A stretch of 60,716 bases of DNA from Microtetraspora fusca (GTDB taxonomy: Bacteria; Actinomycetota; Actinomycetes; Streptosporangiales; Streptosporangiaceae): assembly GCF_001570365.1 (NCBI RefSeq), contig NZ_BBYK01000050.1, positions 149,724 to 210,439 on the forward strand, written 5' to 3'. Below the pieces are notes generated by a model. It did not search any database. It was given only the letters and a program-made list of their open reading frames with translations, and had not been told where the DNA came from. The position numbers and the translations under genes are program-made. Shown here piece after piece: positions 4,789 through 60,716 of this stretch (the stretch's first letter is position 1; each line of letters begins with the position of its first letter).

Positions 4789-6078
4789 CTAGTGGGATAC
4801 CTCCGCCCTGCCGATCAGGTCGGAGACGTCGACGGAGTCCAGTGGGATCGGTGAGAACATCGGCGGCTCCTCCTCCGGCGTCAGTGCCGTGGGGCCATAG
4901 ATCCACTCGGTGAAGGAGTAGTCGTAGGTGTCGCGGGCCCGCAGGAGCGTGTTGCGCTGGAGGCGGGCGACGCCGTCCAGGTGCCACAGCTCGCCCCAGG
5001 CGCGGGCCGTGGTCAGGACGCGTCGGCAGTGCTCAGGGCGGACGGCTTCGTAGGCTGCGAGGGCGCCCTGCCAGTCGATCGCGCCGTCCTCGGCGCGGCG
5101 TGCGGCGACGTGTTTGGCGAGCACCCAGCCGTCCTCGATGGCCATGATCGCGCCCTGCGCCATGTACTGCAGCGGCGGGTGCGCGGCGTCGCCGAGCAGC
5201 GCGATATTGCCCTCGACCCAGGTCATGATCGGGTCGCGGTCGAACATCCGCCACCAGCGGTCGCGCCACATCAGCGGGATGCCGGCCCGAACCTCGGGGC
5301 AGGTCGCGGCGAAGGCGACGTCCAGTTCGTCGGGCGTGCCCCAGTCCTCCTCACCCGCGAGGGCCTTGGGGGACTCGAAGACCGCGACCTGGTTGAGCAT
5401 CTCGCCGCCGCGCAGCCCGTAGTGGACGAAGTGGCAGCGCGGGCCGACGTGGACCGAGACCTCGCTGAGGTCGACGTCCCGGCCGACCTGCTCGATGGGC
5501 ACCGCGGCACGATAGGCGACGTAGGAGGAGTTGATCGGCTCGTCCTCGACCAGAAGCCGGCGCGCGACCGAGTGCAGGCCGTCGGCGGCGATGACGATCC
5601 GGGCCTCGTCGGCGCGGCCGTCCGCCAGCAGCACCCGGGCGCCGGGCGCGGTGTTCTCATAGCCGCTGACGCGGGCGTCCGTGACCAGGTCGACTCCTAC
5701 GCGCCGGCAGGCATGAAGGAAGATGCGGTGCAGGTCGCTGCGGTGGATGACCATGTACGGGAAACCGTACGCGCGTTCCAGGTCGACCAGGTCCAGGCGG
5801 GTCAGCTCGCTGCCGTCGACGGCGTCGCGCATCACCATGCTCTTCGGCAGCACGCCGAGGCTCTTGGCCTCCTCCAGCAGGCCGTAGTCGTGCAGGATCC
5901 GGGTGCAGTTGGGCGCGATCTGGAGGCCGGCGCCGACCTCGCCGAACTCGGGGGCCTGCTCCAGCACGCGCACCCGCAGGCCCTCGCGCGCCAGGGCGAA
6001 CGCCGCGCTCAGGCCGCCGATGCCGCCCCCGACGATCAGGACCTCGACGGGGTTCGCGGATGTGGCGGACGTCGTCAC
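4789..6078 (-). CDS. FAD monooxygenase, probable 3-hydroxybenzoate 6-hydroxylase
   Basis: A 429-residue single-component FAD aromatic hydroxylase. It has the Rossmann motif GGGIGGLSAAFA near residue 15, the AADGLHS (DG) motif mid-protein, and the LLGDAAHPP (GD) motif that binds FAD ribityl and NADH. Together with the downstream enzymes of the gentisate route it most likely converts 3-hydroxybenzoate to gentisate using NADH and O2; salicylate hydroxylases are close relatives and cannot be excluded from sequence alone. The start GTG 6078 is preceded by GAGGAGAA. It is the last gene of the minus-strand gentisate operon, 26 bases after the isomerase gene. Confidence 0.88.
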   Translation of the reverse strand: MTTSATSANPVEVLIVGGGIGGLSAAFALAREGLRVRVLEQAPEFGEVGAGLQIAPNCTRILHDYGLLEEAKSLGVLPKSMVMRDAVDGSELTRLDLVDLERAYGFPYMVIHRSDLHRIFLHACRRVGVDLVTDARVSGYENTAPGARVLLADGRADEARIVIAADGLHSVARRLLVEDEPINSSYVAYRAAVPIEQVGRDVDLSEVSVHVGPRCHFVHYGLRGGEMLNQVAVFESPKALAGEEDWGTPDELDVAFAATCPEVRAGIPLMWRDRWWRMFDRDPIMTWVEGNIALLGDAAHPPLQYMAQGAIMAIEDGWVLAKHVAARRAEDGAIDWQGALAAYEAVRPEHCRRVLTTARAWGELWHLDGVARLQRNTLLRARDTYDYSFTEWIYGPTALTPEEEPPMFSPIPLDSVDVSDLIGRAEVSH

Positions 6079-6104
6079 GCTGTTCTCCTCGAAGGCCGGG
6101 ACGT

Positions 6105-6815
6105 TCACAGCCACGCCGGCAGGGTCGGTGCGAGGAAGCCGTCGCGGGTGGTCAGGGCGTGCGGGCGCCCGGCGAGGTACGCCGCGACGTCGGCGAGCGG
6201 GCCCTTGACGGTGGCGGCCTCCCCCTCGCCGGGCAGCTCCCAGCGGTCGCCGGTATCGGTGGCGGCCAGGACGATCGCGGGACCTGCGGCGCCGCCGCGC
6301 TTGGCGACGATGTCGTCGGCGAGGGCGATCAGGAATCCGGCGGGCAGGTCGGTGAAGGCGATGCCGGAGGCCAGGTCGACGGCGTGGACGCAGACCTCGC
6401 GGGAGCGCAGCCACGGGATCTCGGTCGCGGGGACGGTACGGCCCTGGGCGGTGACGACCTCGGCCTTCCACTGGTCGTCGTTGAGTCCGGCGATGCCCGC
6501 GGCGAGCCGTCCGGCGGACGAGCTCAGCCAGGCGGCCAGCTCGGCGGCCGGCTTGCGGGAGCCGGCCTCGATGTCGGCGTTGCGCTGCTGCGGCGAGGAG
6601 TACATCGGGGTCTTCTCGCCGGTGGCGGCCCAGCGCACCAGGTTGCTCAGTGCGTCGGCGTTCGCCGCCACGTGGGCCACCAGGTGCTTGCGGGTCCAAC
6701 CGGGGAGTCCGGAGGGGGCGAGGTACTGCTCCTCGCCCCACCCGGCGGCGGTGTCGAGGAGCAGCCTGGTGCCCGTCCCGCTCCAGCTCAGGGTGTCGTC
6801 GAAGGTGCGGCGCAT
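6105..6815 (-). CDS. Maleylpyruvate isomerase, mycothiol-dependent type
   Basis: A 236-residue protein with an N-terminal DinB/MDMPI-like helical bundle: SWSGTGTRLLLDTAAG, then LPGWTRKHLVAHVAANADALSNLV, with the metal-binding His pattern HLVAHVAAN. It also has the C-terminal domain of mycothiol maleylpyruvate isomerases. It would isomerise maleylpyruvate, the ring-cleavage product, to fumarylpyruvate with mycothiol as cofactor, which fits an actinobacterium. The ATG at 6815 overlaps the stop of the upstream hydrolase gene as ATGA, implying translational coupling. Confidence 0.88.
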   Translation of the reverse strand: MRRTFDDTLSWSGTGTRLLLDTAAGWGEEQYLAPSGLPGWTRKHLVAHVAANADALSNLVRWAATGEKTPMYSSPQQRNADIEAGSRKPAAELAAWLSSSAGRLAAGIAGLNDDQWKAEVVTAQGRTVPATEIPWLRSREVCVHAVDLASGIAFTDLPAGFLIALADDIVAKRGGAAGPAIVLAATDTGDRWELPGEGEAATVKGPLADVAAYLAGRPHALTTRDGFLAPTLPAWL

Positions 6816-7663
6816 CAGGCCTCCCCGTCCTTGGCCACGGTGTTCTCGAGCCGGCCGATGCCCTGGATCTCGGTGACGACGCGCTCGCCGCCGGTCAGGT
6901 AGCGCTTGGGGGTGCGCGCGTGGCCGACGCCGCCGGGGGTGCCGGTGGCGATGATGTCGCCGGGGTTGAGGCGCACGATGGTCGAGACGTACTCGACCAG
7001 TGCGACCGGGTCGAAGAGCAGGTCGCCGGTGTTGTCGTGTTGCATGACCTCGCCGTCGACGCTGAGGGTGACCTCGAGCTCGGGGCGTACGCCGCCGGGC
7101 AGTTCGTCGGGGGTGACGAGGTAGGGGCCGACGGGGGTGGAGGAGTCCCACATCTTGCCCTGCAGCCACTCCCGGGTGCGGAACTGCCAGTCGCGGCAGG
7201 TGATGTCGTTGAGGACGGTGAACCCGGCGATCGCGGCCTCGGCCTCGGCGCCCTTGGCCCGGCGGACCGGCTTTCCGATCACGACGGCGAGCTCGACCTC
7301 CCAGTCGAACTCCGCGGTCTCCTCGGGACGGGCGATGTCGTCGGCCGCGCCGAGGAGACAGTCGGCGAACTTGGCGAACAGGGTGGGGTACTGCGGCAGG
7401 TCGCGGCCCATCTCCTGGATGTGGTTCTTGTAGTTCAGGCCCACGCACACGACCTTCGAAGGCCGCGGGACGACCGGGGCGAAGTCGGCGCTCTCGACGG
7501 GGTAGGTCGTGGCCGCGCCCGCGTCGACGGCGGCGGCGTCGGCGGCCCAGTCGTCCTGGGAGAGGAGCTCGCCGAGGTCGGGGGCGCCGAGGTCGATCAG
7601 CCGGTCGCCGTCGAGCCGTACGGCGCGGGTCGAGCCGTTGACGCGGAGGGTGGCGAGCTTCAT
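6815..7663 (-). CDS. Fumarylpyruvate hydrolase (FAH family)
   Basis: A 282-residue fumarylacetoacetate-hydrolase-family enzyme. Typical elements are KVVCVGLNYKNHIQEMG (around residue 75), FDWEVELAVVIG with the metal-binding Glu pair, and GDIIATGTPGGVG near the end. In this operon it would cleave fumarylpyruvate to fumarate and pyruvate, finishing the gentisate pathway. The start ATG 7663 overlaps the stop of the dioxygenase gene (ATGA), and its own stop overlaps the isomerase start the same way. Length is normal for the family. Confidence 0.9.
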   Translation of the reverse strand: MKLATLRVNGSTRAVRLDGDRLIDLGAPDLGELLSQDDWAADAAAVDAGAATTYPVESADFAPVVPRPSKVVCVGLNYKNHIQEMGRDLPQYPTLFAKFADCLLGAADDIARPEETAEFDWEVELAVVIGKPVRRAKGAEAEAAIAGFTVLNDITCRDWQFRTREWLQGKMWDSSTPVGPYLVTPDELPGGVRPELEVTLSVDGEVMQHDNTGDLLFDPVALVEYVSTIVRLNPGDIIATGTPGGVGHARTPKRYLTGGERVVTEIQGIGRLENTVAKDGEA

Positions 7664-8829
7664 CGGGTGGTCCCTTCGATACGGGCGTCATGCCGGGTGC
7701 GGTCGAGCTGGAGAGCCTCGAAGATGGGGGAATCGCTGAACCGGAACAGGTCCAGCGCGCCGGAGTCTGAGTCGGTGGAGCCGGCCTCCGACCGGGCCGA
7801 GAAGGGCTGCCAGGACGGGACGGCGAACAGGTCGCCGCGGGTGACCGTCCACGTCTTGTCTCCCACGGTCACGGTGCCGGAGCCGTCGAAGACCTGGTAG
7901 ACCGACGAGCCGGTCTCGCGGACCGGGGCGGTCTCCGTGCCGCGCGCGATGCGGTGCATCTCGGCCCGGAGCGTGGGGAGCACGTCGGCGCCGGTGGCGG
8001 GGTTGGTGTAGCGGACGGCGGCGTGGCCGGGCTCGACTGTGCCGCCGAAGCCCTCGGCCTCCAGGGCGAGCTGGTCGGCCAGGGCGCGGTCGGTGAACTC
8101 CCACTTGTAGGACAGCAGCGGGGTGCCCGGGGTGAGCTCGCCGACCGACAGCGGGCGCAGGCCGGGATGGCCCCACAGCCGCTCCGAGCGGGACCGCTCG
8201 GGGGTGATCCGCTCGGCGTCGCTGATCTTGTCGCGGCCGAGTTCGAAGAACTGCGTCTCGGTGACGTACTGGAAGGGGATGTCCAGGCCGTCGATCCAGG
8301 CCATCGGCTCGCCGGCCGCGTTGTGGTGGGCGTGCCAGTTCCAGCCGGCCTGCGGGAGGAAGTCACCGCGGCGCATCGGGACCGCGTCGCCGCCGACGAC
8401 CGTCCACACGCCCTCGCCCTCGACGACGAAGCGGAAGGCGTGCTGGGTGTGGCGGTGCTCGGGAGCGTCCTCCCCCGGCATCAGGTACTGGATCGCGGCC
8501 CACAGCGTGGGCGTCGCGAAGGGCCGCCCGCCCAGCGCGGGATTGGCCAGCGCGATCGCCCGCCGCTCTCCGCCGCGGCCGACCGGGACCAGGTCGCCGG
8601 CCTGCTCGGCGAGCCGCCGCAGGTTCTCCCAGCGCCACAGGTGCGGCACCGCGCGCGAACGGGGATGCGCCGGCATCAGATCGCCGATCTCCGTCCACAG
8701 CGGCACGAGCAGCTCCCGCTCAAATCCGCGGTAGAGGTCTTCGAGTGCGGGGCTGACGTCGGGCTGGTCCGGCGCGTCGATCGCACGGAGCCGCACCGGG
8801 GACTCTGGCGTGCTCACAGGAGTGCTCAT
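7660..8829 (-). CDS. Gentisate 1,2-dioxygenase
   Basis: A 389-residue bicupin ring-cleavage dioxygenase. The Fe(II) site is in the first cupin: EHRHTQHAFRFVVEGEG supplies two His, and a later His lies in WNWHAHHNAAG. The GHAAVRYTNPATG stretch is characteristic of gentisate dioxygenases. It opens the gentisate ring with O2 to give maleylpyruvate. It is the first gene of the four-gene operon. ATG 8829 has no clear ribosome binding site, so a leaderless or poorly led message is possible. It is divergent from the IclR regulator across a 66-base gap. Confidence 0.92.
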   Translation of the reverse strand: MSTPVSTPESPVRLRAIDAPDQPDVSPALEDLYRGFERELLVPLWTEIGDLMPAHPRSRAVPHLWRWENLRRLAEQAGDLVPVGRGGERRAIALANPALGGRPFATPTLWAAIQYLMPGEDAPEHRHTQHAFRFVVEGEGVWTVVGGDAVPMRRGDFLPQAGWNWHAHHNAAGEPMAWIDGLDIPFQYVTETQFFELGRDKISDAERITPERSRSERLWGHPGLRPLSVGELTPGTPLLSYKWEFTDRALADQLALEAEGFGGTVEPGHAAVRYTNPATGADVLPTLRAEMHRIARGTETAPVRETGSSVYQVFDGSGTVTVGDKTWTVTRGDLFAVPSWQPFSARSEAGSTDSDSGALDLFRFSDSPIFEALQLDRTRHDARIEGTTR

Positions 8830-8869
8830 ACGGCTAATGTTGCTGCCGTAACACTATGAAGAAAGACTA

Positions 8870-8886
8870 ATTCTGCTCTGCAGAAT
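8870..8886. promoter_or_regulatory. Palindromic operator candidate for IclR regulator
   Basis: A perfect 7-bp inverted repeat with a 3-base spacer (attctgc-tct-gcagaat) lies between the divergent gentisate operon and the IclR gene, ending 9 bases before the regulator start. Its position suggests autoregulation and control of the catabolic operon. Binding is inferred. Confidence 0.6.
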
Positions 8887-8895
8887 CGAGGGGCC

Positions 8896-9672
8896 GTGGG
8901 CAAGCCGCTGAAGAATCCGCCGACCTACATGATCAACAGTGTGGACCACGCGCTGCGGATCGCCGCGATGCTCCAACTGGAGGGCGAGCTGACCGTCTCG
9001 GAGGTCGCGGACCGGCTGGGCGTGGCCCGCTCAACCGCGCACCGGCTGCTCGCGATGCTGGTTTACCGGGACTTCGCGGTCCAGGACGAGCGGCGCCTCT
9101 ACCGGGCCGGCCCGGTCCTGGAGCTCGCGGCCCACTCGCCCTCGGCCGCGTCTCGTCTGCGGGCGGCGGCCCTGCCGCACCTGCACCGGCTGGTCGGCGC
9201 GCTCGACGAGTCCGCCAACCTGGCGGTGCGCACCGGGGACACGGTCCGGTTCATCGCCAGCGTCGAGTGCTTCCAGAGTCTGCGGGTGGGCTCCCGCGAG
9301 GGCATGGTGTTTCCCGCCCACCACACCACGGCGGGGCTGCTGCTGCTGGCAGAGCTGACCGACGAGGAACTCGAGGCGGTCTATCCGGCCGAGCGGTACG
9401 CCGACCGGCCCGCTGAGCGGCCCGACCTGGACCGGATGCGGACCGAGCTGGCCCGGGTGCGGCGCAACGGTTTCGCGCTCAACCAGGGCCGCTCGGAGCG
9501 CGGCGTGGTCGCGCTCGGTGTGCCGGTCCGGGCCCCGGACGGGAGCGCCCTCGCCGGCCTGTCGGTGTCGATGCCGAGCGGACGCTACGACCGGCACCGG
9601 CTGCCGTCACTGGTCGACACCCTTTCCCGTACCGCAGGCGCCGTCGAGGCCGATCTCGCCCGCTCCGCCTGA
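8896..9672 (+). CDS. IclR-family regulator of gentisate operon
   Basis: A 258-residue IclR regulator: winged helix at about residues 12-70 (LTVSEVADRLGVARSTAHRLL) and a C-terminal effector domain of about 180 residues (VGSREGMVFPAHHTTAGLLLLA). It faces away from the gentisate operon and probably controls it in response to 3-hydroxybenzoate or gentisate, as the equivalent IclR protein does in corynebacteria. The start GTG 8896 has CGAGGGG just upstream, overlapped by the palindrome at 8870-8886. A later in-frame Met (residue 12) is a weaker start. Confidence 0.88.
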   Translation: MGKPLKNPPTYMINSVDHALRIAAMLQLEGELTVSEVADRLGVARSTAHRLLAMLVYRDFAVQDERRLYRAGPVLELAAHSPSAASRLRAAALPHLHRLVGALDESANLAVRTGDTVRFIASVECFQSLRVGSREGMVFPAHHTTAGLLLLAELTDEELEAVYPAERYADRPAERPDLDRMRTELARVRRNGFALNQGRSERGVVALGVPVRAPDGSALAGLSVSMPSGRYDRHRLPSLVDTLSRTAGAVEADLARSA

Positions 9673-34327: not shown

Positions 34328-35110
34328 GTGACCATCGGACAGCAACGATCGGTCCTCGACCGTGCCCTGCGGATCCTCGAGGCGTTCCAGCACGGTCCCG
34401 ACAGGATGACGCTCTCCGAGATCAGCCGCCACACCGAGATCCCGCTCACCACGACACACCGCATCGTCAACGAGCTCGCCGAGTGGGGCGCGCTGGAGCG
34501 CGAGCCGTCGGGGAAGTACCGGGTCGGCCTCCGGCTGTGGGAGGTCGCCGCGCACGCGCCGCGCTCGGTCGGCCTGCAGCGGATCGCCATGCCGTTCATG
34601 CAGGGCCTCTACGAGAACACCCACCGCAGTGTCCACCTGGCCGTGCGCGAGAAGGACGAGGTGGTCTTCGTCGAGCGGCTCACCAGCCCCGACCGGCCGC
34701 GCGAGCGGCCACGCGTCGGCGGCAGGTACGCCATGCATGCGACGGCGGTCGGGCTCGTCCTGCTCGCCTACGCGCCGGACGACGTGCAGGAGGAGGTCAT
34801 CTCGGGGCCGCTGCGCGCCTTCACCTCCAGGACCTACTCGAACGAGCGCGAGCTACGGCAGGTCCTCGCGGACATCCGGCGGAACGGGTACGCGGTGAGC
34901 GACCGCCAGATCGACCCGGAGTACATGTCGGTCGCCGCCCCCATCCACGGCGCCGACAACACCGTCGTCGCCGCTCTGTCGCTGATCGTGCCACCGACGG
35001 ACGCGCACGGCGTACGGCTGGCGCGTCTGGTGCAGGCGACGGCTCGCGGCATCTCCCGGGCACTCGGCGCGTCGGTCGGACCTGCCGCCGTCCGGCCAGG
35101 GAAACCCTGA
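34328..35110 (+). CDS. IclR-family regulator of the AcnX/IlvD operon
   Basis: A 260-residue IclR protein: winged helix about 8-70 (MTLSEISRHTEIPLTTTHRIVNEL) and effector domain about 80-250 (VGGRYAMHATAVGLVLLAYAP). It is the first gene of the 34.3-42.8 kb locus and likely senses its substrate. An operator-like palindrome at 35183 follows it, in front of the transporter operon. GTG 34328 follows GAGGAGGAAG. Family members act as repressors or activators of catabolic operons. Confidence 0.9.
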   Translation: MTIGQQRSVLDRALRILEAFQHGPDRMTLSEISRHTEIPLTTTHRIVNELAEWGALEREPSGKYRVGLRLWEVAAHAPRSVGLQRIAMPFMQGLYENTHRSVHLAVREKDEVVFVERLTSPDRPRERPRVGGRYAMHATAVGLVLLAYAPDDVQEEVISGPLRAFTSRTYSNERELRQVLADIRRNGYAVSDRQIDPEYMSVAAPIHGADNTVVAALSLIVPPTDAHGVRLARLVQATARGISRALGASVGPAAVRPGKP

Positions 35111-35182
35111 GAGAGATGCGGTCGCGGCACCGGCCCACATGATCCCGTTCCGGTACCCCTGAGCACTTTCGCCCTATAAGTC

Positions 35183-35197
35183 TTCCGATATCCGGAA
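35183..35197. promoter_or_regulatory. Operator-like palindrome before ABC operon
   Basis: ttccg-atatc-cggaa is a perfect 15-bp palindrome about 93 bases before the substrate-binding protein gene and 72 bases after the IclR stop. It sits in an unusually AT-rich stretch (35176-35215), fitting a promoter/operator region for IclR. Confidence 0.6.
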
Positions 35198-35289
35198 ATA
35201 TCAATTGTCGACACACGCGCCGTGAGGCGACCCTCATGTGCGTCGCGGCCACCTTTCATCGGCCCGCGACGTGGAAAAGGAGACTCACG

Positions 35290-36381
35290 GTGCGTCCAAT
35301 CACCCCCAGGCCGTCAGTTGCCACCCCGAGCCTCGATCGCCGTTCCTTCCTCCGGAGGTCCGCCTTCGCCGTCGCGGCGGCGGCCGCCGGCCCCACGCTG
35401 CTGTCGGCGTGCGGATCCGACTCCGCCGCCGGAGCGGGCTCGGGGTCCGGCTCGGGATCACGCGGCATCACGTTTCTGAGCTACCTCCCGCTCGAGACGC
35501 TGTCACTGGCGCCGGAGCTCCTCGCCGTAGCCGGCGGACATTTCACGAAGCACGGCCTCGACGTGAAGCTGCAGCCCGTCAAGGGCTCGCCGCAGGCGAT
35601 GCAGACCCTGTTGGCCGGCTCCGGGCTGGTCACCCGGGTCGGGCAGATCGACCTCGTGACCGCCGTCGGCAAGACCGAGCAGCCGATGGTCAACGTCGGC
35701 AGCCTCACGCGGGCCTCCACCGTACGCATCCTGTACAGCAAGAAGAACCCGCTGAACCGGCCGGAGGACCTCGCCGGGAAGACGATGGGCGTCCCGTCGG
35801 AGGGCGGCACGAGCGACAAGCTCGTCAGCCTGGTCATGAGCAACAGCGGGCTCGACGCCGCGAGCGTCAAGCGGCAGGTCGTCGGCCTGACGCCCGGGAC
35901 CTTCAACCTCGTGCAGCAGGGCCGGATCGCCGGCTACGTCGTCAGCCTGGACACCGCCAACATCGTGGTCTCGCAGAACAGCGACGCGGCGATCTTCGAC
36001 CCCGGCGAGTACGTGAACGCGGACACCCAGGTGTACGTGTCGACGAGGGACAACGTGAAGAACAAGGCCGCCGACCTCAAGGCGTTCCTGGCCGGGATCA
36101 ACGACGCAGTCGCCGCGATGGTCGCGGACGAGTCGCTCGACGAGACCCTGAAGGTCCTGCGCGGCGCGTACTCCTTCGCGACCCTGAACGACGACGACAT
36201 CGCCAAGGCGAGCCTCCGGCAGAGCCGCGACGCCTGGACCGGCGGCAGGCCCGGCGACCCGTTCCTCGTCACCGACGAGAAGGGGTGGTCGACCGGCTAC
36301 GACGAGCTGGTCAAGGCCGGGATGGTCCCGTCCGGCCTCGACCCGAAGGTCTGGCTCGACAACAGCCTCCTGTCCGCCTAG
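35290..36381 (+). CDS. ABC importer substrate-binding lipoprotein, NMT1 type
   Basis: A 363-residue NMT1/ThiY-like solute-binding protein. The N terminus has a twin-arginine signal (DRRSFLRR, Arg17-Arg18) and a lipobox LLSAC with Cys41, so it is a Tat-exported lipoprotein. The mature part opens ITFLSYLPLETLSLAPELLAVAGGHFTKHGLDV, typical of importers for pyrimidines, sulfonates, aromatic acids and the like. GTG 35290 is preceded by AAAAGGAG. It forms an operon with the ATPase and permease and then with the dehydratase genes, so it likely brings in their substrate. Confidence 0.9.
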   Translation: MRPITPRPSVATPSLDRRSFLRRSAFAVAAAAAGPTLLSACGSDSAAGAGSGSGSGSRGITFLSYLPLETLSLAPELLAVAGGHFTKHGLDVKLQPVKGSPQAMQTLLAGSGLVTRVGQIDLVTAVGKTEQPMVNVGSLTRASTVRILYSKKNPLNRPEDLAGKTMGVPSEGGTSDKLVSLVMSNSGLDAASVKRQVVGLTPGTFNLVQQGRIAGYVVSLDTANIVVSQNSDAAIFDPGEYVNADTQVYVSTRDNVKNKAADLKAFLAGINDAVAAMVADESLDETLKVLRGAYSFATLNDDDIAKASLRQSRDAWTGGRPGDPFLVTDEKGWSTGYDELVKAGMVPSGLDPKVWLDNSLLSA

Positions 36382-36404
36382 CCGAGAGCCGTCAAGGAGA
36401 AGCC

Positions 36405-37262
36405 GTGGCGAAGGACGCCAAGACGATGACCGCGCCCGTGGCGGGGCGGCCGACGGAGCCGACGGAGCCGACGGCGCCCTCGGCGCCGAAGCTCCAGCTG
36501 GTCGGGATCACCAAGGAGTTCCACACCAAGCGGGGCACCACGCGGGCGCTGTCCGACATCAACCTGACCATCAACGACAAGGAGTTCGTCTCCCTGATCG
36601 GCCGTTCCGGCTGCGGCAAGACGACGTTGCTGCGTACGCTCGCCGGGCTGGTGAACCCGACCGCCGGCGAGGTCCTCATCGAGGGCAGGTCGCTGTGGCA
36701 GGGATCGCACGTCGACCCCACCGTGGTCGACCAGCTCGGGGTGGTCTTCCAAGAAGCCAACCTCTTCCCCTGGTACTCGGTCGTCGACAACATCGCGCTT
36801 CCCCTGCGGCTACGCGGCGTGAAGCGGAAGGAGCGGCTCGAGCGGGCGTGCGAGCTCGCCGAGCTGGTCGGGCTGAAGGGGTTCGAGAAGTCCTACCCTC
36901 GCGAGCTCTCGGGCGGCATGCGGCAACGGGTCGCGATCGCCAGGGCGCTGAGCATCACGCCCAAGCTGCTCCTCATGGACGAGCCGTTCGGCGCGCTCGA
37001 CGCCCTCACCCGGGAGCGGATGAACATCGAGCTCCAGCGGATCGCCGCCGCGACGGAGGCCACCGTCGTGTTCGTCACCCACGACATCACCGAAGCGGTC
37101 TTTCTCGGTGACCGCATCGTCCATCTGACACCCCGTCCCGGACGGATCCGGCAGGTCAGGTCGGTGGAGTTCACCCGGCCGCGCGGGATCGACGTCCAGA
37201 CGGAGCCGGAGTTCGGCGCCATCGTGCGCGACCTCCGCCACGCGCTCGACGAGGAGGAATAG
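36405..37262 (+). CDS. ABC importer ATP-binding protein
   Basis: A 285-residue ATPase of the taurine/nitrate/NMT1 importer class. Walker A GRSGCGKTT, Q-loop VFQEANLFPWYS, signature LSGGMRQR, Walker B LLLMDEPFGALD, and switch His in VFVTHDITEA are all intact. The first 25 residues are a Thr/Pro-rich extension (PTEPTEPTAPSAP). GTG 36405 follows AAGGAGA. It lies 23 bases after the binding-protein gene and 3 bases before the permease. Confidence 0.93.
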   Translation: MAKDAKTMTAPVAGRPTEPTEPTAPSAPKLQLVGITKEFHTKRGTTRALSDINLTINDKEFVSLIGRSGCGKTTLLRTLAGLVNPTAGEVLIEGRSLWQGSHVDPTVVDQLGVVFQEANLFPWYSVVDNIALPLRLRGVKRKERLERACELAELVGLKGFEKSYPRELSGGMRQRVAIARALSITPKLLLMDEPFGALDALTRERMNIELQRIAAATEATVVFVTHDITEAVFLGDRIVHLTPRPGRIRQVRSVEFTRPRGIDVQTEPEFGAIVRDLRHALDEEE

Positions 37263-37265
37263 GCC

Positions 37266-38057
37266 ATGACCCGTGGAAGATCGATGCGGCTGCTGCCGTG
37301 GATCACCACCCCTCTGCTGCTGATCGCCTTCTTCGTCGCCTGGGACGTGTTCGTCCGCGCGTTCGAGGTCAACGAGCTCGTCCTGCCGCGGCCGGGCGCG
37401 GTGTTCGAGAGCCTGGGCGAGGTCGTCCGGAACCCCGCCACCTGGGATCATGCGCGTGTCACCGTCCTGGAGACCACGTCCGGCTTCCTGGCCGCGCTGG
37501 TGTTCGGCGTCGTCGCGGGCGTCGTGCTCGGGAAGGTGCCGTGGATCGAGCGGAGCCTGCGCCCGATGATCGTGGCGTCGCAGGTGGTGCCGAAGGTCGC
37601 GCTCATCCCGCTGTTCGTCATCTGGTTCGGGTTCGGCATCACCTCGAAGGTCATCATGGCCGCGATGCTCGCCTTCTTCCCCATCATGCTGAACGTGCAG
37701 CTCGGGGTGCGGTCGGTCGAGGCCGGGCAGCGCGAGGTGATGCGGAGCCTGAATGCCGGCCGCTGGCAGACGTTCGTGCACCTCGAACTCAGGAGCACCA
37801 TGCCGTACGTCCTGGCCGGCATGGAGGTGGGCATCGTCTTCGCGATCATCGGCACGATCGTCGGCGAGTACCTCGGCGGCAGCGAGGGGCTCGGCTACCT
37901 CGTGGTGGTGACGCTCAACGCGCTCGACGCGCCGCAGCTCTTCGCGGTCATCATCCTGTTGTCGGTGATCGGCCTCGCCATGTACTTCGTGGTGAACACG
38001 CTCAAGCGGGTGCTCATCCCCTGGCACGAGTCCGTCTACGGCCAGAACGGGGTGTGA
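37266..38057 (+). CDS. ABC importer permease
   Basis: A 263-residue permease with about six membrane helices and the BPD EAA loop (GVRSVEAGQREVMRSLNAGRWQTF, about 150-173) that docks the ATPase. TIVGEYLGGSEGLGYLV near residue 200 is typical of the SsuC/TauC/ThiX group. It probably works as a homodimer, since no second permease gene is present. The stop lies 5 bases before the dehydratase start, consistent with coupled translation. Confidence 0.92.
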   Translation: MTRGRSMRLLPWITTPLLLIAFFVAWDVFVRAFEVNELVLPRPGAVFESLGEVVRNPATWDHARVTVLETTSGFLAALVFGVVAGVVLGKVPWIERSLRPMIVASQVVPKVALIPLFVIWFGFGITSKVIMAAMLAFFPIMLNVQLGVRSVEAGQREVMRSLNAGRWQTFVHLELRSTMPYVLAGMEVGIVFAIIGTIVGEYLGGSEGLGYLVVVTLNALDAPQLFAVIILLSVIGLAMYFVVNTLKRVLIPWHESVYGQNGV

Positions 38058-38062
38058 GCGGC

Positions 38063-39748
38063 ATGGAACCGCGCAGCAACCACCCCGTCGGCAGCCCCCG
38101 CTGGGCCACCACCCGCACCCAGTGGCGGGCGCTCGGTCTCGACGACGAGGACATCAGGAAGCCCAAGATCGCGATCGTGAACTCGTCGTCCGGGCTCTCC
38201 CCGTGTTTCAGCCACCTCGACCCCATCGCGGCCGAGGTACGGCGGTCGATCAGGGACGCGGGAGGCGTGGGGTTCGAGATCAGGACGGTCGCCCCCACGG
38301 ACTTCATCATGAGCGCGGGCGGCCGCGGCGGGTATGTCCTCTCCTCACGCGATCTGATCGCGAACGACATCGAGGCCGTCGTCGAGGGCGCACGGCTCGA
38401 CGGGATGGTCTGCCTCGCGTCCTGCGACAAGACGACCCCCGGACAGCTGATGGCCGCCGCGCGGATCAACATCCCGACGCTGATCGTCTCGTGCGGCTAC
38501 CAGAGCTGCGGAACGCTGGACGACGGCGAGCGGGTGGACATCGAAGAGGTGTTCATCAAGGCCGGCCATCTCGCGTCGGGGCGGATCTCGTTCGAGGGTC
38601 TCTGCGACATGAGCGCGCGGGCCATCACGAGCCCCGGCGTCTGCACGGGCATGGGAACCGCCAACACCATGCACATCGTGGCCGAGGCGCTGGGCATGAC
38701 GATCGCGGGCTCCACCCCGGTGCGTGCCGACAGCGACCGCATGTGGGCGACCGTGCGGGAGTCCGGGCGCGTCATCATGGAGGCCGTCGAGCACGCCCGG
38801 CTCCCCCGCGACATCATGACCGCCGAGGCGTTCGCCAACGCGGTGTCGGCGACCCTCGCGGTCAGCGGGTCCATCAACGCCGTCAAGCACCTCCAGGCGA
38901 TCGCGCGCGAGGCGGGGTCCGACGTCGACGTCTACCGGCTGTTCGAGCGCCAGGCGGAGTCCGTACGGCCTCTCTCGGCGGTGCGGCCCAACGGCGAGGA
39001 CAGCATCGAGGAGTTCGAGGACGCCGGCGGGGCGCTCGCCGTGCTCGCGCAACTCGGCGACCACCTGCACGGGGCGGCGCGCACGGTCACCGGCGAGACC
39101 ATGGCGGCGCGCACCGCCTCCGCCGTGGTGCGCGACGAAAGGATCATCAGGCCCGCCGTCGACCCGCGCGGGCAGGAGGCGACGATCATCGTGGTGCGGG
39201 GCTCGCTCGCGCCCGACTCCGCGATCGTGAAGCTCTCCGTCTCGGAGCGGCGGACGAAGACGTTCCGCGGTCCCGCCCGGGTGTTCGGCGACGCCCTCTC
39301 ATGCGTCGAGGCCATCGAGCGGGGCGTCGTACGCGCCGGCGACGTGCTCGTGCTGCGAGGTCTCGGGCCGGTCGGCACCCCCGGCATGGGCATGGCGTCC
39401 CAGCCCGTGTTCGCGCTCGACGGCGCCGGCCTGACCGAGAGCGTCGCGGTCGTCACCGACGGGCAGCTGTCCGGACTGGTCAACAAGGGCATCGTCGTCG
39501 GCGAGGTCAGCCCGGAGGGCGCGGTCAAGGGGCCGCTGGCCATCGTCGAGGACGGCGACCCGATCGCGATCGACCTGCCCCGAAGGACCGTCGACCTCCT
39601 GATAGAGCCCGACGAGGCCGATCGCCGGCTGGCCCGGTGGACCGCCGATGATCCGCCGGCCGACGCGTCCGGATGGCTGTCGATCTACGCCCGCAACGTC
39701 GAACCGCTGCACCGGGGTGCGACGCTCCGCGGCGACCGCAGCCGTTGA
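38063..39748 (+). CDS. IlvD/Edd-family dehydratase
   Basis: A 561-residue iron-sulfur dehydratase. The three cluster Cys are visible as Cys48 (GLSPCFSHL), Cys121 (ASCDKTTPG) and Cys194 (SPGVCTGMGTANTMH). The C-terminal swivel domain carries GPVGTPGMGM and VTDGQLSGL, including the conserved Ser base region. It removes water from a 2,3-dihydroxy acid, giving a 2-keto-3-deoxy acid; sugar acids or dihydroxy carboxylic acids are the usual substrates. ATG 38063 is nine bases after an alternative GTG 38054. It is fourth in the transporter operon. Not likely to be the housekeeping IlvD because of this context. Confidence 0.9.
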   Translation: MEPRSNHPVGSPRWATTRTQWRALGLDDEDIRKPKIAIVNSSSGLSPCFSHLDPIAAEVRRSIRDAGGVGFEIRTVAPTDFIMSAGGRGGYVLSSRDLIANDIEAVVEGARLDGMVCLASCDKTTPGQLMAAARINIPTLIVSCGYQSCGTLDDGERVDIEEVFIKAGHLASGRISFEGLCDMSARAITSPGVCTGMGTANTMHIVAEALGMTIAGSTPVRADSDRMWATVRESGRVIMEAVEHARLPRDIMTAEAFANAVSATLAVSGSINAVKHLQAIAREAGSDVDVYRLFERQAESVRPLSAVRPNGEDSIEEFEDAGGALAVLAQLGDHLHGAARTVTGETMAARTASAVVRDERIIRPAVDPRGQEATIIVVRGSLAPDSAIVKLSVSERRTKTFRGPARVFGDALSCVEAIERGVVRAGDVLVLRGLGPVGTPGMGMASQPVFALDGAGLTESVAVVTDGQLSGLVNKGIVVGEVSPEGAVKGPLAIVEDGDPIAIDLPRRTVDLLIEPDEADRRLARWTADDPPADASGWLSIYARNVEPLHRGATLRGDRSR

Positions 39749-39773
39749 CCCCGACACTCCTGACAGGAGGACC

Positions 39774-41063
39774 ATGCCTCACCCCCTGACCGAACTGAAG
39801 ATCAACACGGTGACCAAGCCCTCGGGGCGTACCGTCGAACGGGTCGACGCGGACATCTGCGTCGTGGGCGCCGGGATCGCCGGCCTCTCCGCCGCCATCG
39901 AGGCGCGCCGGATCGGCCGCACCGTCGCGCTCGTCGACGCGCTGCCCGTCCTCGGCGGCCAGTGCGTGAACTCGCTCATCGGGCTCTTCTGCGGGATCTT
40001 CGGCAACGGTCCGGAGTACCGCCAGCTCACGCACGGTGTCTTCGACGAGATGTTCGCCGACCTGGGCAAGACGGACGACATCTACTTCAACAAGTCGCAC
40101 ACCATCACGGTCAGCTACGACGAGATCGTGCTCGGCCGCTGGTTCGAGAACCTCGTCCAACGGCTCGGCATCCAGGTCGTCCTCGGCGCGTCCGTGCACG
40201 CGGTCGACGTCGCCGACGGCCACGTCCGTTCGGTCGACTTCGCCACCCGACACGGCGACGTACGGGTCACCGCCGGAGGGTTCGTCGACGCGACCGGGGA
40301 CGCCGCGCTCACGTGGGAGGCGGGGCTGCCCTGCCGCCTCCCGGAGCGGACGGTGTGGGGATCGCAGCAGATCCGGTTGGAGAACCTGGACGAGACCCGC
40401 CGGCCGGACCCGGCCGAGCTCGTGGCACGCGTGGACGAGAAGGCGGAGCAGTACGGCCTGGTGCGCCGGGACGGGCTCGCGTTCTTCTTCCCCGGCCGCA
40501 ACACGGCGGTCATGAACATGACCCACGTCGAGGCGCCGCTGGAGGCCGTACGGGCGGCGCAGGCACAGCTCGAAGGGCGCGCCCAGGCCGACCGGGTGGT
40601 CGAGTTCCTGCGCAGCGAGTTCCCCGGCGCCTTCGGGGACGCCAAGGTACGCAGCTACGGCTTCCCCGGGCGACGCCAGACCCGGTGGATCGCGGCGGTG
40701 CACCAGCTCGGCGTCGAGGAGGTCCGGCAGGGCACCTTCTTCGAGGACGCCGTCGCGCGTACGGCCTGGCCGATCGAGTTGCACGACCGCGTGGAGGGCT
40801 ACGTGTGGGAGACGTTCGGCCCGGACCACGTGCACTATGTGCCGCTGCGCAGCCTGATCCCCGTCGGCGCGCACAACCTCGTCGCCGCCGGCCGCTGCGT
40901 CGACGGCGACGCGGCGGCGCTGTCGAGCGTACGCGTGATGGGCCCGTGCGCCGCCATGGGAGTCGGGGCGGCGCACGCGCTCGACCTGGCCGGGGGCGGC
41001 AGCATCCAGGAGGTCAAACCCGCCGACCTTCGCGAGCGGGTGCACGACAACGTCGAGGGATGA
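39774..41063 (+). CDS. FAD-dependent oxidoreductase (FAD_oxidored type)
   Basis: A 429-residue flavoprotein. The Rossmann motif ICVVGAGIAGLSAAIEARRIG lies at about 26-46, followed by GGQCVNSLIGLFCGIFG with two Cys, a pattern of the FAD_oxidored group, in which a nearby Cys may contact flavin. The C terminus has PVGAHNLVAAGRCVDGDAAALSSVRVMGPCAAMGVGA, a typical second FAD-contact region. It likely oxidises or reduces a hydroxy acid intermediate in the operon. ATG 39774 follows AGGAGG. Exact reaction unknown. Confidence 0.87.
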   Translation: MPHPLTELKINTVTKPSGRTVERVDADICVVGAGIAGLSAAIEARRIGRTVALVDALPVLGGQCVNSLIGLFCGIFGNGPEYRQLTHGVFDEMFADLGKTDDIYFNKSHTITVSYDEIVLGRWFENLVQRLGIQVVLGASVHAVDVADGHVRSVDFATRHGDVRVTAGGFVDATGDAALTWEAGLPCRLPERTVWGSQQIRLENLDETRRPDPAELVARVDEKAEQYGLVRRDGLAFFFPGRNTAVMNMTHVEAPLEAVRAAQAQLEGRAQADRVVEFLRSEFPGAFGDAKVRSYGFPGRRQTRWIAAVHQLGVEEVRQGTFFEDAVARTAWPIELHDRVEGYVWETFGPDHVHYVPLRSLIPVGAHNLVAAGRCVDGDAAALSSVRVMGPCAAMGVGAAHALDLAGGGSIQEVKPADLRERVHDNVEG

Positions 41064-41073
41064 GGCGAGCGTC

Positions 41074-42372
41074 ATGAGACTGACCGATGAGGAGAAGGCG
41101 ATGCTCGACGGGGCGGAGGGCCCCGCGGTCGCCGCGGCGATGGACCTGCTCGTGCGCTACGGCGACGCGCTGGGCGCGGAACGCCTCTGCGAGACCCGCA
41201 ACGTCGCGGGGACGATGACACAACCCTCGCCGGTCAAGGCGAAGCTGGTGCGTGAGGGCGGCTGGAACAAGTCGTTCGCGGTGATCAACCTCGACTGCGA
41301 CGACGACATCGAGATCCCGCCGATGCGCGTCCCGACCTGCCAGCTGCAGCACGGATTCAGCGACGACGCGCTCGGCATCGCCCCGTATCCCCCGAATATG
41401 GTGGAGTTGCAGGGCGACGCCGAGTCGTTCTTCGGAGGCCGCGGGGTGAACATCCTCGCGACCTGCACGCCGTACCAGGTGGGCAACCTTCCCGTGCGCG
41501 GCGAGCACTGCGCGTGGATGGAGTCGTCCGCCGTGGTGTACTGCAACTCCGTGCTGGGTGCCCGTACGAACTGTGAGGGCACCGCGTCGACGGGGGCGGC
41601 GAGCCTGACCGGCAGGATCCCCTACTGGGGCAACCACCTGCCCGAGAACCGCCACGGCACCCACCTGATCGAGTCGCGGGTGCCCGTCGACGGCTTCCTC
41701 GACTGGGGCATGTTCGGCTATTTCGTCGGCGACCTCGTCCAGGAGGCGCGGCCCGTGATCAGCGGGGATCTGCGCCGCCCCGACCTGAACGACCTGAAGC
41801 ACTTCGGTGCCGCCGCGGCGTCCTCGGGCGGGGTCGAGATCTACCACCTACCCGGCACCACCCCCGAGGCCCCGACACTCGCGGCCGCGTTCGGCGGCGG
41901 GCGCCTCCCCGAACCCGTCGTGTACGGCGAGCGCGAACGCCGGCAGGTCTACGAGACCCTGAACAACCAGGGCACGAGCACCGACGTCGACTTCGTCCTC
42001 CTCGGCTGCCCCCACGCGTCACTGGACCAGATCGCGCGCGCGGCCCGCGCGCTGGAGGGCAGGAAGCTCAACCCAGGCACGGAGCTTTGGGTGATGACTC
42101 CGCGCGCGCTCCGGAGCGTGGCCGACCGCAACGGCTACACGCGGGTGATCGAGGAGGCGGGCGGCAAGGTCCTCACCGACTCCTGTCCGGCGATGTCCCG
42201 GTCGGCCCCCGTGGGCACCCGGGTCTTCGCGACCGACTCCGCGAAACAGGCGCACTATCTGCCCGCCATCCTCGGCATCGAGGCGTGGTTCGGGACCCTG
42301 GAGGAGTGCGTCGACGCCGCCGTCACCGGCAAATGGCGCGGTGACCTCCGGGCCGTGGAGGGCGCGCGATGA
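41074..42372 (+). CDS. Aconitase X catalytic (large) subunit
   Basis: A 432-residue aconitase X large subunit (formerly DUF521). Hallmarks: TCTPYQVGNLPVRGEHCAWMESSAVVY (about 130-156), NSVLGARTNCEG (about 158-169), LTGRIPYWGNHLPENR (about 178-193), GCPHAS (Cys312) and TDSCPAMS (Cys371). Cys131, Cys312 and Cys371 are candidates for Fe-S ligands by position. Known members dehydrate cis-3-hydroxy-L-proline or phosphomevalonate. Here no hydroxyproline or mevalonate genes adjoin, so a different hydroxy acid is likely. ATG 41074 follows GAGGCGAG. Its stop overlaps the small-subunit start. Confidence 0.92.
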   Translation: MRLTDEEKAMLDGAEGPAVAAAMDLLVRYGDALGAERLCETRNVAGTMTQPSPVKAKLVREGGWNKSFAVINLDCDDDIEIPPMRVPTCQLQHGFSDDALGIAPYPPNMVELQGDAESFFGGRGVNILATCTPYQVGNLPVRGEHCAWMESSAVVYCNSVLGARTNCEGTASTGAASLTGRIPYWGNHLPENRHGTHLIESRVPVDGFLDWGMFGYFVGDLVQEARPVISGDLRRPDLNDLKHFGAAAASSGGVEIYHLPGTTPEAPTLAAAFGGGRLPEPVVYGERERRQVYETLNNQGTSTDVDFVLLGCPHASLDQIARAARALEGRKLNPGTELWVMTPRALRSVADRNGYTRVIEEAGGKVLTDSCPAMSRSAPVGTRVFATDSAKQAHYLPAILGIEAWFGTLEECVDAAVTGKWRGDLRAVEGAR

Positions 42373-42797
42373 CGATCGAGATCAGGGGGAGGTGCGTCGT
42401 CCCCGGATACGCCGAGGGCGAGGCCCTCGTGTCCCACGAGACGATCTCGGGCTGGGGCGGCATCGATCCGGCCACCGGGACGATCATCGAGCGCCGCCAC
42501 GAGCTCTTCGGCGTCTGCTTCACGGGGAAGGTGCTGGTGTTCCCCGGCGCCAAGGGATCGTCCGGCTGGTCGGGGTTCTTCCAGAGCACCCGGCTGCTCG
42601 GGACCGCGCCGCTGGCGATGGTGTTCACCACGATGACGACCAAGGCCGCGCTGGGCGCGGTCGTCACCCGCGTCCCCGCCATGTCCGAGTTCGACCACGA
42701 CCCGACAGAAGTGGTCAACACCGGGGACTGGGTGGTCGTCGCCGCGGATCAGGGCCTTCTCACCGTGACGCCCTCCCGAGGTTCCGCGCGGAGGTGA
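42369..42797 (+). CDS. Aconitase X swivel (small) subunit
   Basis: A 142-residue aconitase X small subunit (formerly DUF126). VPGYAEGEALVSHETISGWGGIDPATG opens the swivel domain, and FPGAKGSSGWSGFFQ (about 58-72) carries the conserved Ser (Ser64 or Ser65) that serves as the catalytic base in characterised relatives. It overlaps the large subunit by four bases (ATGA), so the two are made together, and it ends the operon just before a strong terminator. Confidence 0.92.
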   Translation: MTIEIRGRCVVPGYAEGEALVSHETISGWGGIDPATGTIIERRHELFGVCFTGKVLVFPGAKGSSGWSGFFQSTRLLGTAPLAMVFTTMTTKAALGAVVTRVPAMSEFDHDPTEVVNTGDWVVVAADQGLLTVTPSRGSARR

Positions 42798-42818: not shown

Positions 42819-42850
42819 GCGGGCCCCGGCGCCAGACGGCCGGGGCCCGC
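42819..42850 (+). terminator. Intrinsic terminator after AcnX operon
   Basis: A perfect 11-bp GC-rich stem (gcgggccccgg at 42819-42829 with ccggggcccgc at 42840-42850) followed by ttcctgt, 21 bases after the small-subunit stop. Confidence 0.8.
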
Positions 42851-57900: not shown

Positions 57901-58450
57901 GGACCAAGGCGAACGGCGGCGATTACGACTGCGGCGCCGGATCCGGCTGACAGCAGCCGCGCTGGGCCGCTCACGGGGTGGGCTGACCAGCAAGGTCCAC
58001 CTGTCCGCCGACCGGCGCTGCCGTCCGCTGTCTTGCGTCCTCACCCCGGGCCAGGCCGGAGACAGCCCGCAGTTTCACGCCGTGCTGGCCCGCATCAAGG
58101 TCCGCATCCGCGTCGGGCGCCCGCGTACCCGCCCGGACGCGGTGGCCGCCGATAAGGCGTACTCCTCTCGCGCCAACCGCGCCTACCTGCGCCGACGCCA
58201 TATCCGGGCGATGATCCCCGAGAAGGCGGACCAGGCGGCCAACCGCAAGAAACGCGGCTCCCATGGTGGCCGCCCGGTCAGCCATGCCCCAGATCTCTAC
58301 AAGCAGCGCAACACGGTTGAGCGCTGTATCAACCGGATCAAGGACTGGCGTGGGCTGGCCTTCCGCTTCGACAAGACCCCCGAAAGCTATCTGGCCGGCC
58401 TTCATCTACGCGGAGCCATCTTGTGGATCCGAAGCCTTCAACCCGCCTGA
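57851..58450 (+). CDS. IS5-family transposase, frame B
   Basis: The second frame (boundary approximate). LGRSRGGLTSKVHLSADRRC, then PDAVAADKAYSSRANRAYLR with the second catalytic Asp, and YKQRNTVERCINRIKDWRGLAFRFDK with the catalytic Glu of the ERC-type motif. Joining to frame A needs a +1 shift, or one lost or gained base near the A-rich stretch at about 57847-57880. All three DDE residues are present across the two frames, so the element might move if the shift is programmed. Confidence 0.8.
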   Translation, partial: RGCTKGTKPQDSEDGDEDQGERRRLRLRRRIRLTAAALGRSRGGLTSKVHLSADRRCRPLSCVLTPGQAGDSPQFHAVLARIKVRIRVGRPRTRPDAVAADKAYSSRANRAYLRRRHIRAMIPEKADQAANRKKRGSHGGRPVSHAPDLYKQRNTVERCINRIKDWRGLAFRFDKTPESYLAGLHLRGAILWIRSLQPA

Positions 58451-60423: not shown

Positions 60424-60716
60424 GGGCCTGTATCGAAGTCGGTCAGAGCCATTCGTTGATCGCGGCGATGAGGATAGTGGCTTCGTAGCGCACGGCGAGT
60501 TTGTCGTATCGCGTGGCGACAGCGCGGTGGCGTTTGAGCCGGTTGATGCCACATTCGACAGCGTGGCGCCGCTTGTAGATCTCAGGGGCGAAGGCGGGTG
60601 GTCGGCCGCCCTTGGACCCTTTGGCACGGCGGCTGGCGTCCTGGTCGGCCTTGCTCGGGATGGTGGCTTTGATGCCGCGCCGTCGCAGGTAGGCGCGGTT
60701 GGCCATGGATGTGTAA
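60424..60716 (-). mobile_element. IS5/IS427-type element, 3' end, continues past window
   Basis: Starts with the terminal repeat gggcctgtatcgaag at 60424, similar to that of the IS at 57399. The transposase C-terminal part (60443 to the window end) reads [40 protein letters not shown] and [20 protein letters not shown]. The frame is open to the window edge, so the gene is partial here. It has inserted into the transposase at 59894-60423. Confidence 0.85.

Follow-up and report, generated by a model that had tools for sequence, protein, structure and literature searches.

Gene organisation of the locus

The window analysed here is a 60,716 nt stretch of DNA from Microtetraspora fusca (contig C49 of a 9.02 Mb genome), and all coordinates below are positions in this window unless a locus is named. 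It contains an IclR-family regulator gene followed by a one-directional run of genes for an ABC importer, an IlvD/Edd-family dehydratase, a flavin adenine dinucleotide (FAD)-dependent oxidoreductase and a two-subunit aconitase X (AcnX), and this operon is the subject of our analysis. Its features are as follows.

34328-35110, forward strand: IclR-family regulator (Pfam IclR_C and HTH_IclR)
35183-35197, no strand assigned: inverted repeat TTCCG-N5-CGGAA, with exact copies 5' of the binding-protein gene in relatives
35290-36381, forward strand: NMT1/THI5-type ABC substrate-binding protein (Pfam PF09084, E 1.2e-23)
36405-37262, forward strand: ABC transporter ATPase (Pfam PF00005)
37266-38057, forward strand: ABC transporter permease (Pfam PF00528)
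38063-39748, forward strand: IlvD/Edd-family dehydratase of a separate clade with the signature TDGQLSGLVNKG (Pfam PF00920 and PF24877; tree and motifs)
39774-41063, forward strand: FAD-dependent oxidoreductase (FAD_oxidored PF12831, E 6.8e-72)
41074-42372, forward strand: catalytic large subunit of AcnX (Pfam PF04412, E 9.5e-110; alignment; top Foldseek match 7cnr_A)
42369-42797, forward strand: small (swivel) subunit of AcnX (Pfam PF01989; alignment)
42819-42850, forward strand: perfect 12-bp hairpin, a probable terminator lacking a good T-run (hairpin search)

The original prediction, made from the sequence alone, had named these genes, and open reading frames (ORFs) and Pfam matches showed each of them to be intact where it had been placed. 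The tight same-strand run was also confirmed, although it comprises seven genes after iclR (binding protein, ATPase, permease, IlvD/Edd, flavoprotein, AcnX large and small subunit) rather than six. The predicted gaps of 3-25 bases and single 4-base overlap agree with the spacings of 23, 3, 5, 25 and 10 bases and the 4-base overlap of the two AcnX genes. The strong terminator proposed for the end of the operon corresponds to this perfect hairpin, which lacks a good T-run and was not among the sites of an intrinsic-terminator scan. Pfam searches of the operon proteins bore out that a reductase, racemase, kinase and aldolase are all absent. The binding protein gave weak matches only when compared with solved structures, and no Rfam family or tRNA was detected anywhere in the window.

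The AcnX belongs to a separate clade

A search of the window's own genome returned one AcnX match. In the AcnX tree, the window protein falls within a supported branch (98/98, 37 rows), and AtAcnX forms a clade apart with type IIa-like sequences (100/100); the AtAcnX row is a fragment, as is the TkAcnX row, which sits on a long branch so that its exact place is unsure, and the IIa-like rows are named by motif and position in the tree, with no characterised member among them. The window AcnX is thus outside the cis-3-hydroxy-L-proline dehydratase clade, a grouping that the original prediction had named as evidence against itself.

The hallmarks of the AcnX superfamily are present, as both the Pfam AcnX and swivel domains and the catalytic Ser, Glu, Lys and Tyr are retained. 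Cysteines C131, C312 and C371 of the large subunit and the E-S-S motif match TkAcnX by alignment, and these cysteines are likely to be the iron-sulphur (Fe-S) cysteines, with Ser64 of the small subunit the likely general base. In AtAcnX the substrate amine is bound by Asp203 and Thr72, according to the available text of PMC8184944, and these positions align with Ala45 and Gly66 in the window AcnX. The latter also has an insert at around residues 60-82 which is missing from the other clades, and Asn43 at the position where most other AcnX rows have His. The AlphaFold model has a pLDDT of 83, with low confidence for residues 132-168 around the cluster site, and its best Foldseek match is 7cnr_A, while NF051439, which models fused AcnX proteins, scored 214/700 bits with the large subunit and 72/700 bits with the small subunit. 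The same 2021 structure paper, in the sections available, states that subclasses IIc-IIf have none of the landmark residues for either known activity and call for functional work (PMC8184944).

The dehydratase and flavoprotein partners

IlvD/Edd enzymes convert 2,3-dihydroxy acids to 2-oxo acids. The operon IlvD retains the N- and C-terminal Pfam domains of this family, together with three cysteine motifs, which we take to be the Fe-S cluster ligands, and an SG motif that presumably marks the active site. The genome encodes three further IlvD/Edd matches with 31-38% identity to it, therefore the operon IlvD is an extra copy and is unlikely to be a housekeeping enzyme. In a quick tree of 53 rows, which all come from window-type AcnX loci or the genomes carrying them, the operon-type IlvD proteins form a single clade (31 rows, SH-aLRT 100) apart from 22 other copies of the same genomes; given this choice of rows, the tree shows separation from paralogues and not restriction of the clade to AcnX loci. 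The protein scored below all eight NCBIfam cut-offs listed (TIGR00110, 468/618 bits), and both this and its separate clade set it apart from the biosynthetic dihydroxy-acid dehydratase (ilvD) equivalog. Named records nevertheless label members of the operon-type clade as biosynthetic 'ilvD', although the company of their genes looks catabolic.

The PF12831 match spans the whole flavoprotein. Its AlphaFold model (pLDDT 84) gave only remote flavoproteins in Foldseek, with 10-16% identity, there was neither a close solved structure nor an NCBIfam match near its cut-off, and the fold was dropped as a clue to function. Three groups of flavoproteins are found beside the same partners, and two of the groups are only 22-29% identical to the window protein. 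That three groups accompany the same partners argues for the need of a redox function, whatever its chemistry.

Conservation of the IlvD-FAD-AcnX core

We expanded the comparison to other genomes. A genome scan identified 27 related loci, and with searches of the class, the order and plasmids the set, counting the window itself, reached 39 window-type AcnX loci; the AcnX tree places 37 of these, and two (L027 and L028) were assigned by similarity only. The fetched stretches vary in length and some stop at a contig edge. Within them, a window-type IlvD was found in 26/39 loci and a PF12831-type flavoprotein in 30/39, of which four (L009, L018, L122, L144) have the flavoprotein without IlvD. None of the 15 other-type AcnX loci fetched with context had an IlvD (Fisher p 5e-6, uncorrected for kinship), and among these a flavoprotein was clear in Sporomusa only, with one weak match elsewhere (L127, 38 bits).

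The closely related Microtetraspora glauca has an AcnX 94% identical to that of the window. Beyond such relatives, the order ilvD-FAD-acnXL-acnXS is identical, with two 4-base overlaps, on a plasmid of Paroceanicella profunda (Alphaproteobacteria), and the core is present in reshuffled arrangements in Burkholderiales. The original prediction had proposed to look for the gene neighbourhood in other genomes. The three enzymes do recur, in Actinomycetota as well as in Alpha- and Betaproteobacteria and in some cases with the order retained, and for this reason chance adjacency was rejected. The transporters beside the core are exchanged between relatives, and include ABC, TRAP, TctC and MFS types. 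A co-occurring dehydrogenase had also been proposed as a check: aldehyde and NDMA-dependent alcohol dehydrogenases do occur in some relatives, but none lies beside the window operon.

Linkage was also followed across whole genomes. Thirteen window-type loci lacked IlvD in the fetched stretch, and whole-genome searches covered ten of them (all but L024, L027 and L028). Five of the ten have an IlvD 48-61% identical to that of the window located elsewhere, next to a flavoprotein in three of them (G1061, G1062, G1063), and the other IlvD copies listed are well below this at 31-40% identity. Among 394 genomes of the class, seven have both AcnX and IlvD, one has AcnX only, two have IlvD only and 384 have neither (p 1e-12, uncorrected for kinship), where window-type was defined as E below 1e-115 and the AcnX and IlvD searches were taken as one draw on the basis of equal genome number and shared handles.

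Several observations weigh against an import-and-degrade operon built on this core. Nine of the 39 window-type loci have neither IlvD nor flavoprotein nearby, and five of the ten genomes searched whole have no close IlvD (matches at 33-39% only in G754, G515, G1059 and G1064, none at the limit used in G753), which counts against an obligate link between AcnX and IlvD. Two genomes of the class have IlvD and no AcnX. Many loci are near relatives, including the near-copies L012/L013/L119, L021/L022 and L024/L025, and the counts overstate their independence. Finally, the divergent flavoprotein groups could mean different reactions.

AcnX was probably added to a more basic FAD-IlvD pair, because such pairs occur with no AcnX match in actinomycetes and with no annotated AcnX nearby on plasmids. 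Two actinomycete genomes of the class have an IlvD (49-50% identical) beside a flavoprotein and no AcnX match in the genome, and plasmids of Polaromonas (with TctC) and Indioceanicola (with TRAP) carry the pair with no annotated AcnX in the stretch, for which the gene table is incomplete. On a Rhodococcus plasmid, the neighbours of IlvD are MFS genes, and a gene annotated as FAD oxidoreductase lies approximately 6 kb away.

Other genes were seen next to AcnX in individual groups. In Microbacterium (L012, 5132-6779), a UGSC-family protein and a 368-aa partner without a Pfam match adjoin AcnX, and on a Sporomusa plasmid (L142, 4130-5854) the two are fused into a 574-aa protein beside FAD_oxidored and AcnX genes. 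This pair is possibly an alternative to IlvD, and it may correspond to the UGSC/Unknown_1 fusion that appears in the available text of PMC2398784. Two loci from metagenome-assembled genomes of Desulfobulbaceae/Geobacteraceae (L025, 7965-16427, and L024) form a deep branch of the window AcnX clade, and here the neighbouring genes encode a cupin, a membrane transporter and two enzymes, one a thiamine pyrophosphate enzyme resembling acetolactate synthase and the other resembling ketopantoate reductase. In two actinobacterial groups (L010, L014, L121, L123), creatininase, FMN dehydrogenase, radical SAM/SPASM and glycosyltransferase genes are located at most 10 kb from AcnX, a gene group resembling what we take to be the mycofactocin cluster. 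One Burkholderiales version of the operon has an arylmalonate-decarboxylase/maleate-isomerase family gene between IclR and TctC (L116, 14160-14966, minus strand).

A putative operator upstream of the importer genes

The leader of the binding-protein gene contains TTCCG-ATATC-CGGAA at 35183-35197, present once in the window; the palindrome reported earlier is perfect in its 5-base arms, but these are separated by a 5-base spacer. Exact copies of TTCCG-N5-CGGAA were found 69-177 bases upstream of the called binding-protein start in 6/15 other loci tested, in some of them overlapping the final codons of iclR, and in L118 and L122 a whole-locus scan likewise placed the repeat ahead of the binding-protein gene. 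L020 and L011 have it with one mismatch, and it is absent from most of the Microbacterium loci tested. Exact matches also occur at unrelated places in L008, L012 and L119. The repeat is likely to be the operator of the IclR regulator, judging from its position and recurrence, and the operon would then be under IclR control. The tighter pattern TTCCGRTATSCGGAA has a single exact copy in the genome, and both sites with one mismatch lie inside listed ORFs, hence a wider palindrome regulon was rejected.

Proposed function and candidate substrates

We propose, with a probability of roughly 0.68, that this is an IclR-controlled import-and-degrade operon for a hydroxylated carboxylic acid, with a core consisting of an IlvD-type dehydratase, a PF12831 flavoprotein and a two-subunit AcnX of an uncharacterised subtype. 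The ABC importer would bring the acid into the cell, where the flavin enzyme may oxidise it or a neighbouring carbinol and so set up the substrate. From the chemistry of their families, the IlvD-type enzyme would convert a 2,3-dihydroxy acid to a 2-oxo-3-deoxy acid, and AcnX would strip the beta-hydroxyl and alpha-proton from a related intermediate to give an enol or an alpha,beta-unsaturated acid, which could enter central metabolism through enzymes encoded elsewhere. Such an elimination is what the available text of PMC8184944 gives for AcnX enzymes. Both dehydratases would presumably use the same imported compound, or products derived from it, while the order of the steps and the class of substrate (aromatic side-chain acid or sugar acid/dicarboxylate) are conjectural. 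No described pathway with this enzyme set was found in the open-licence literature searched, in line with the original prediction, and the available text of the AcnX structure paper brings in IlvD/Edd enzymes merely as a comparison (PMC8184944). The best reading is therefore an undescribed catabolic module of known enzyme families which the known AcnX activities do not explain.

The neighbours of related loci hint at the substrate in two directions, aromatic (lignin-type) and sugar acid or dicarboxylate, and the surroundings of the window operon favour neither. A pathway for a sugar acid or a hydroxylated di- or tricarboxylate is a tentative option. It would fit the 2,3-dihydroxy acids used by IlvD/Edd enzymes, and the IlvD-FAD pairs are accompanied by a LacI regulator and TctC in Polaromonas, by a GntR regulator and TRAP in Indioceanicola and, by eye, by GntR- and MFS-looking genes in two actinomycetes; the Rhodococcus IlvD is found with LacI and two MFS genes, and a TRAP dicarboxylate set adjoins the Paroceanicella core. 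However, dihydroxy-acid dehydratase models outscore those for L-arabinonate, xylonate and phosphogluconate with the operon IlvD, and to our knowledge importers of the NMT1 family do not typically carry sugar acids. Aromatic or lignin side-chain acids are an unlikely substrate class, in which dehydrogenases would yield an aryl hydroxy acid, IlvD would convert an arylglycerate to an arylpyruvate, and AcnX would form a cinnamate-type or enol product. Here the relevant context is that of Microbacterium L188, where the IlvD-FAD pair is found among two GcvT-type proteins (presumably LigM-like), an NDMA-dependent alcohol dehydrogenase and an aldehyde dehydrogenase. MaoC, SDR, CoA-ligase, amidohydrolase and acyl-CoA dehydrogenase genes are also present in L188, resembling the hydroxycinnamate (Cou) route as outlined in the available text of PMC4737184. 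In another actinomycete genus, two genomes have LigB genes about 8 kb or less from AcnX, and LigB occurs in one of two Acidovorax loci; a Rieske oxygenase gene and a TfdA-type dioxygenase gene were each seen in one Burkholderiales locus, and a 44% identical flavoprotein is part of a Variovorax hydroxyphenylpropionate-type operon. With the profiles searched, the fetched stretches of the window and of the operon-type relatives closest to it (L002-L005, L007, L008, L019, L020, L118) gave none of these genes, and catabolic genes cluster on islands. We consider it doubtful that the operon is an undescribed route for lignin-type hydroxylated side-chain acids, which would be broken down by a flavoprotein and two unrelated Fe-S dehydratases, with AcnX having a third activity besides those on hydroxyproline and mevalonate phosphate and with importers interchanged freely among phyla.

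The hydroxyproline route, in which the window AcnX would be a cis-3-hydroxy-L-proline dehydratase, is highly improbable. This is the activity of the characterised bacterial AcnX enzymes as given in the available text of PMC5144071, and the window small subunit retains the pyrrolidine-pocket Trp of AtAcnX, as do 27/39 small subunits of the clade, with Phe or Tyr in the remainder. The position outside the type I/IIa clade, the exchange of both amine-binding residues and an operon lacking proline racemase and reductase nevertheless led us to reject it; by contrast, an other-type AcnX of Sulfitobacter is located between hydroxyproline epimerase and proline racemase genes. The conserved gene neighbourhood, the importer and the candidate pair of regulator and operator make the function of this uncharacterised AcnX clade directly testable.

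Elsewhere in the window, 25 kb from the AcnX operon, there is a gentisate-type operon with a divergent IclR gene (4789-9672), which may be a coincidence. Its best matches are 3-hydroxybenzoate 6-hydroxylase-like, mycothiol-dependent maleylpyruvate isomerase, FAH hydrolase and gentisate dioxygenase-like proteins, and three of the four enzymes score under the NCBIfam cut-offs. Two similar short ORFs (58082-58450 and 60443-60706) look transposase-like by eye, and the window end may carry insertion-sequence remnants.

Comparison with known systems

The flavoprotein belongs to the PF12831 FAD_oxidored proteins by its full-length match, and the same is true of the operon IlvD with regard to the IlvD/Edd dehydratases acting on dihydroxy acids, L-arabinonate and phosphogluconate, although operon types read TDG(Q/H)xSGLVxxG where other copies mostly have TDGRFSG (16 rows). 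With the type I and IIa AcnX enzymes (AtAcnX, hydroxyproline), the window AcnX shares the fold and, by alignment, the active-site general-base Ser, Glu-Ser, Lys and Tyr, and with type IIa also the two-subunit layout, whereas it differs from them in its clade, the replaced Asp/Thr pair, the extra insert and the company of its genes. Its GCPH motif contains a cysteine, in contrast to the GTPH of the IIa-like rows. The archaeal type IIb mevalonate 5-phosphate dehydratase (TkAcnX, 7cnr) provides the closest solved structure (31% identity in the Foldseek alignment), and has the Fe-S cysteines and the E-S-S motif in common with the window AcnX. Mevalonate genes are absent from the window operon, and TkAcnX Leu27 and Val64 of the small subunit align with Trp29 and Gly66. 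Of the TkAcnX substrate pocket, the carboxylate and hydroxyl residues are kept, the small-subunit residues are unlike those given in the available text of PMC8184944, and the phosphate-site region falls outside the alignment.

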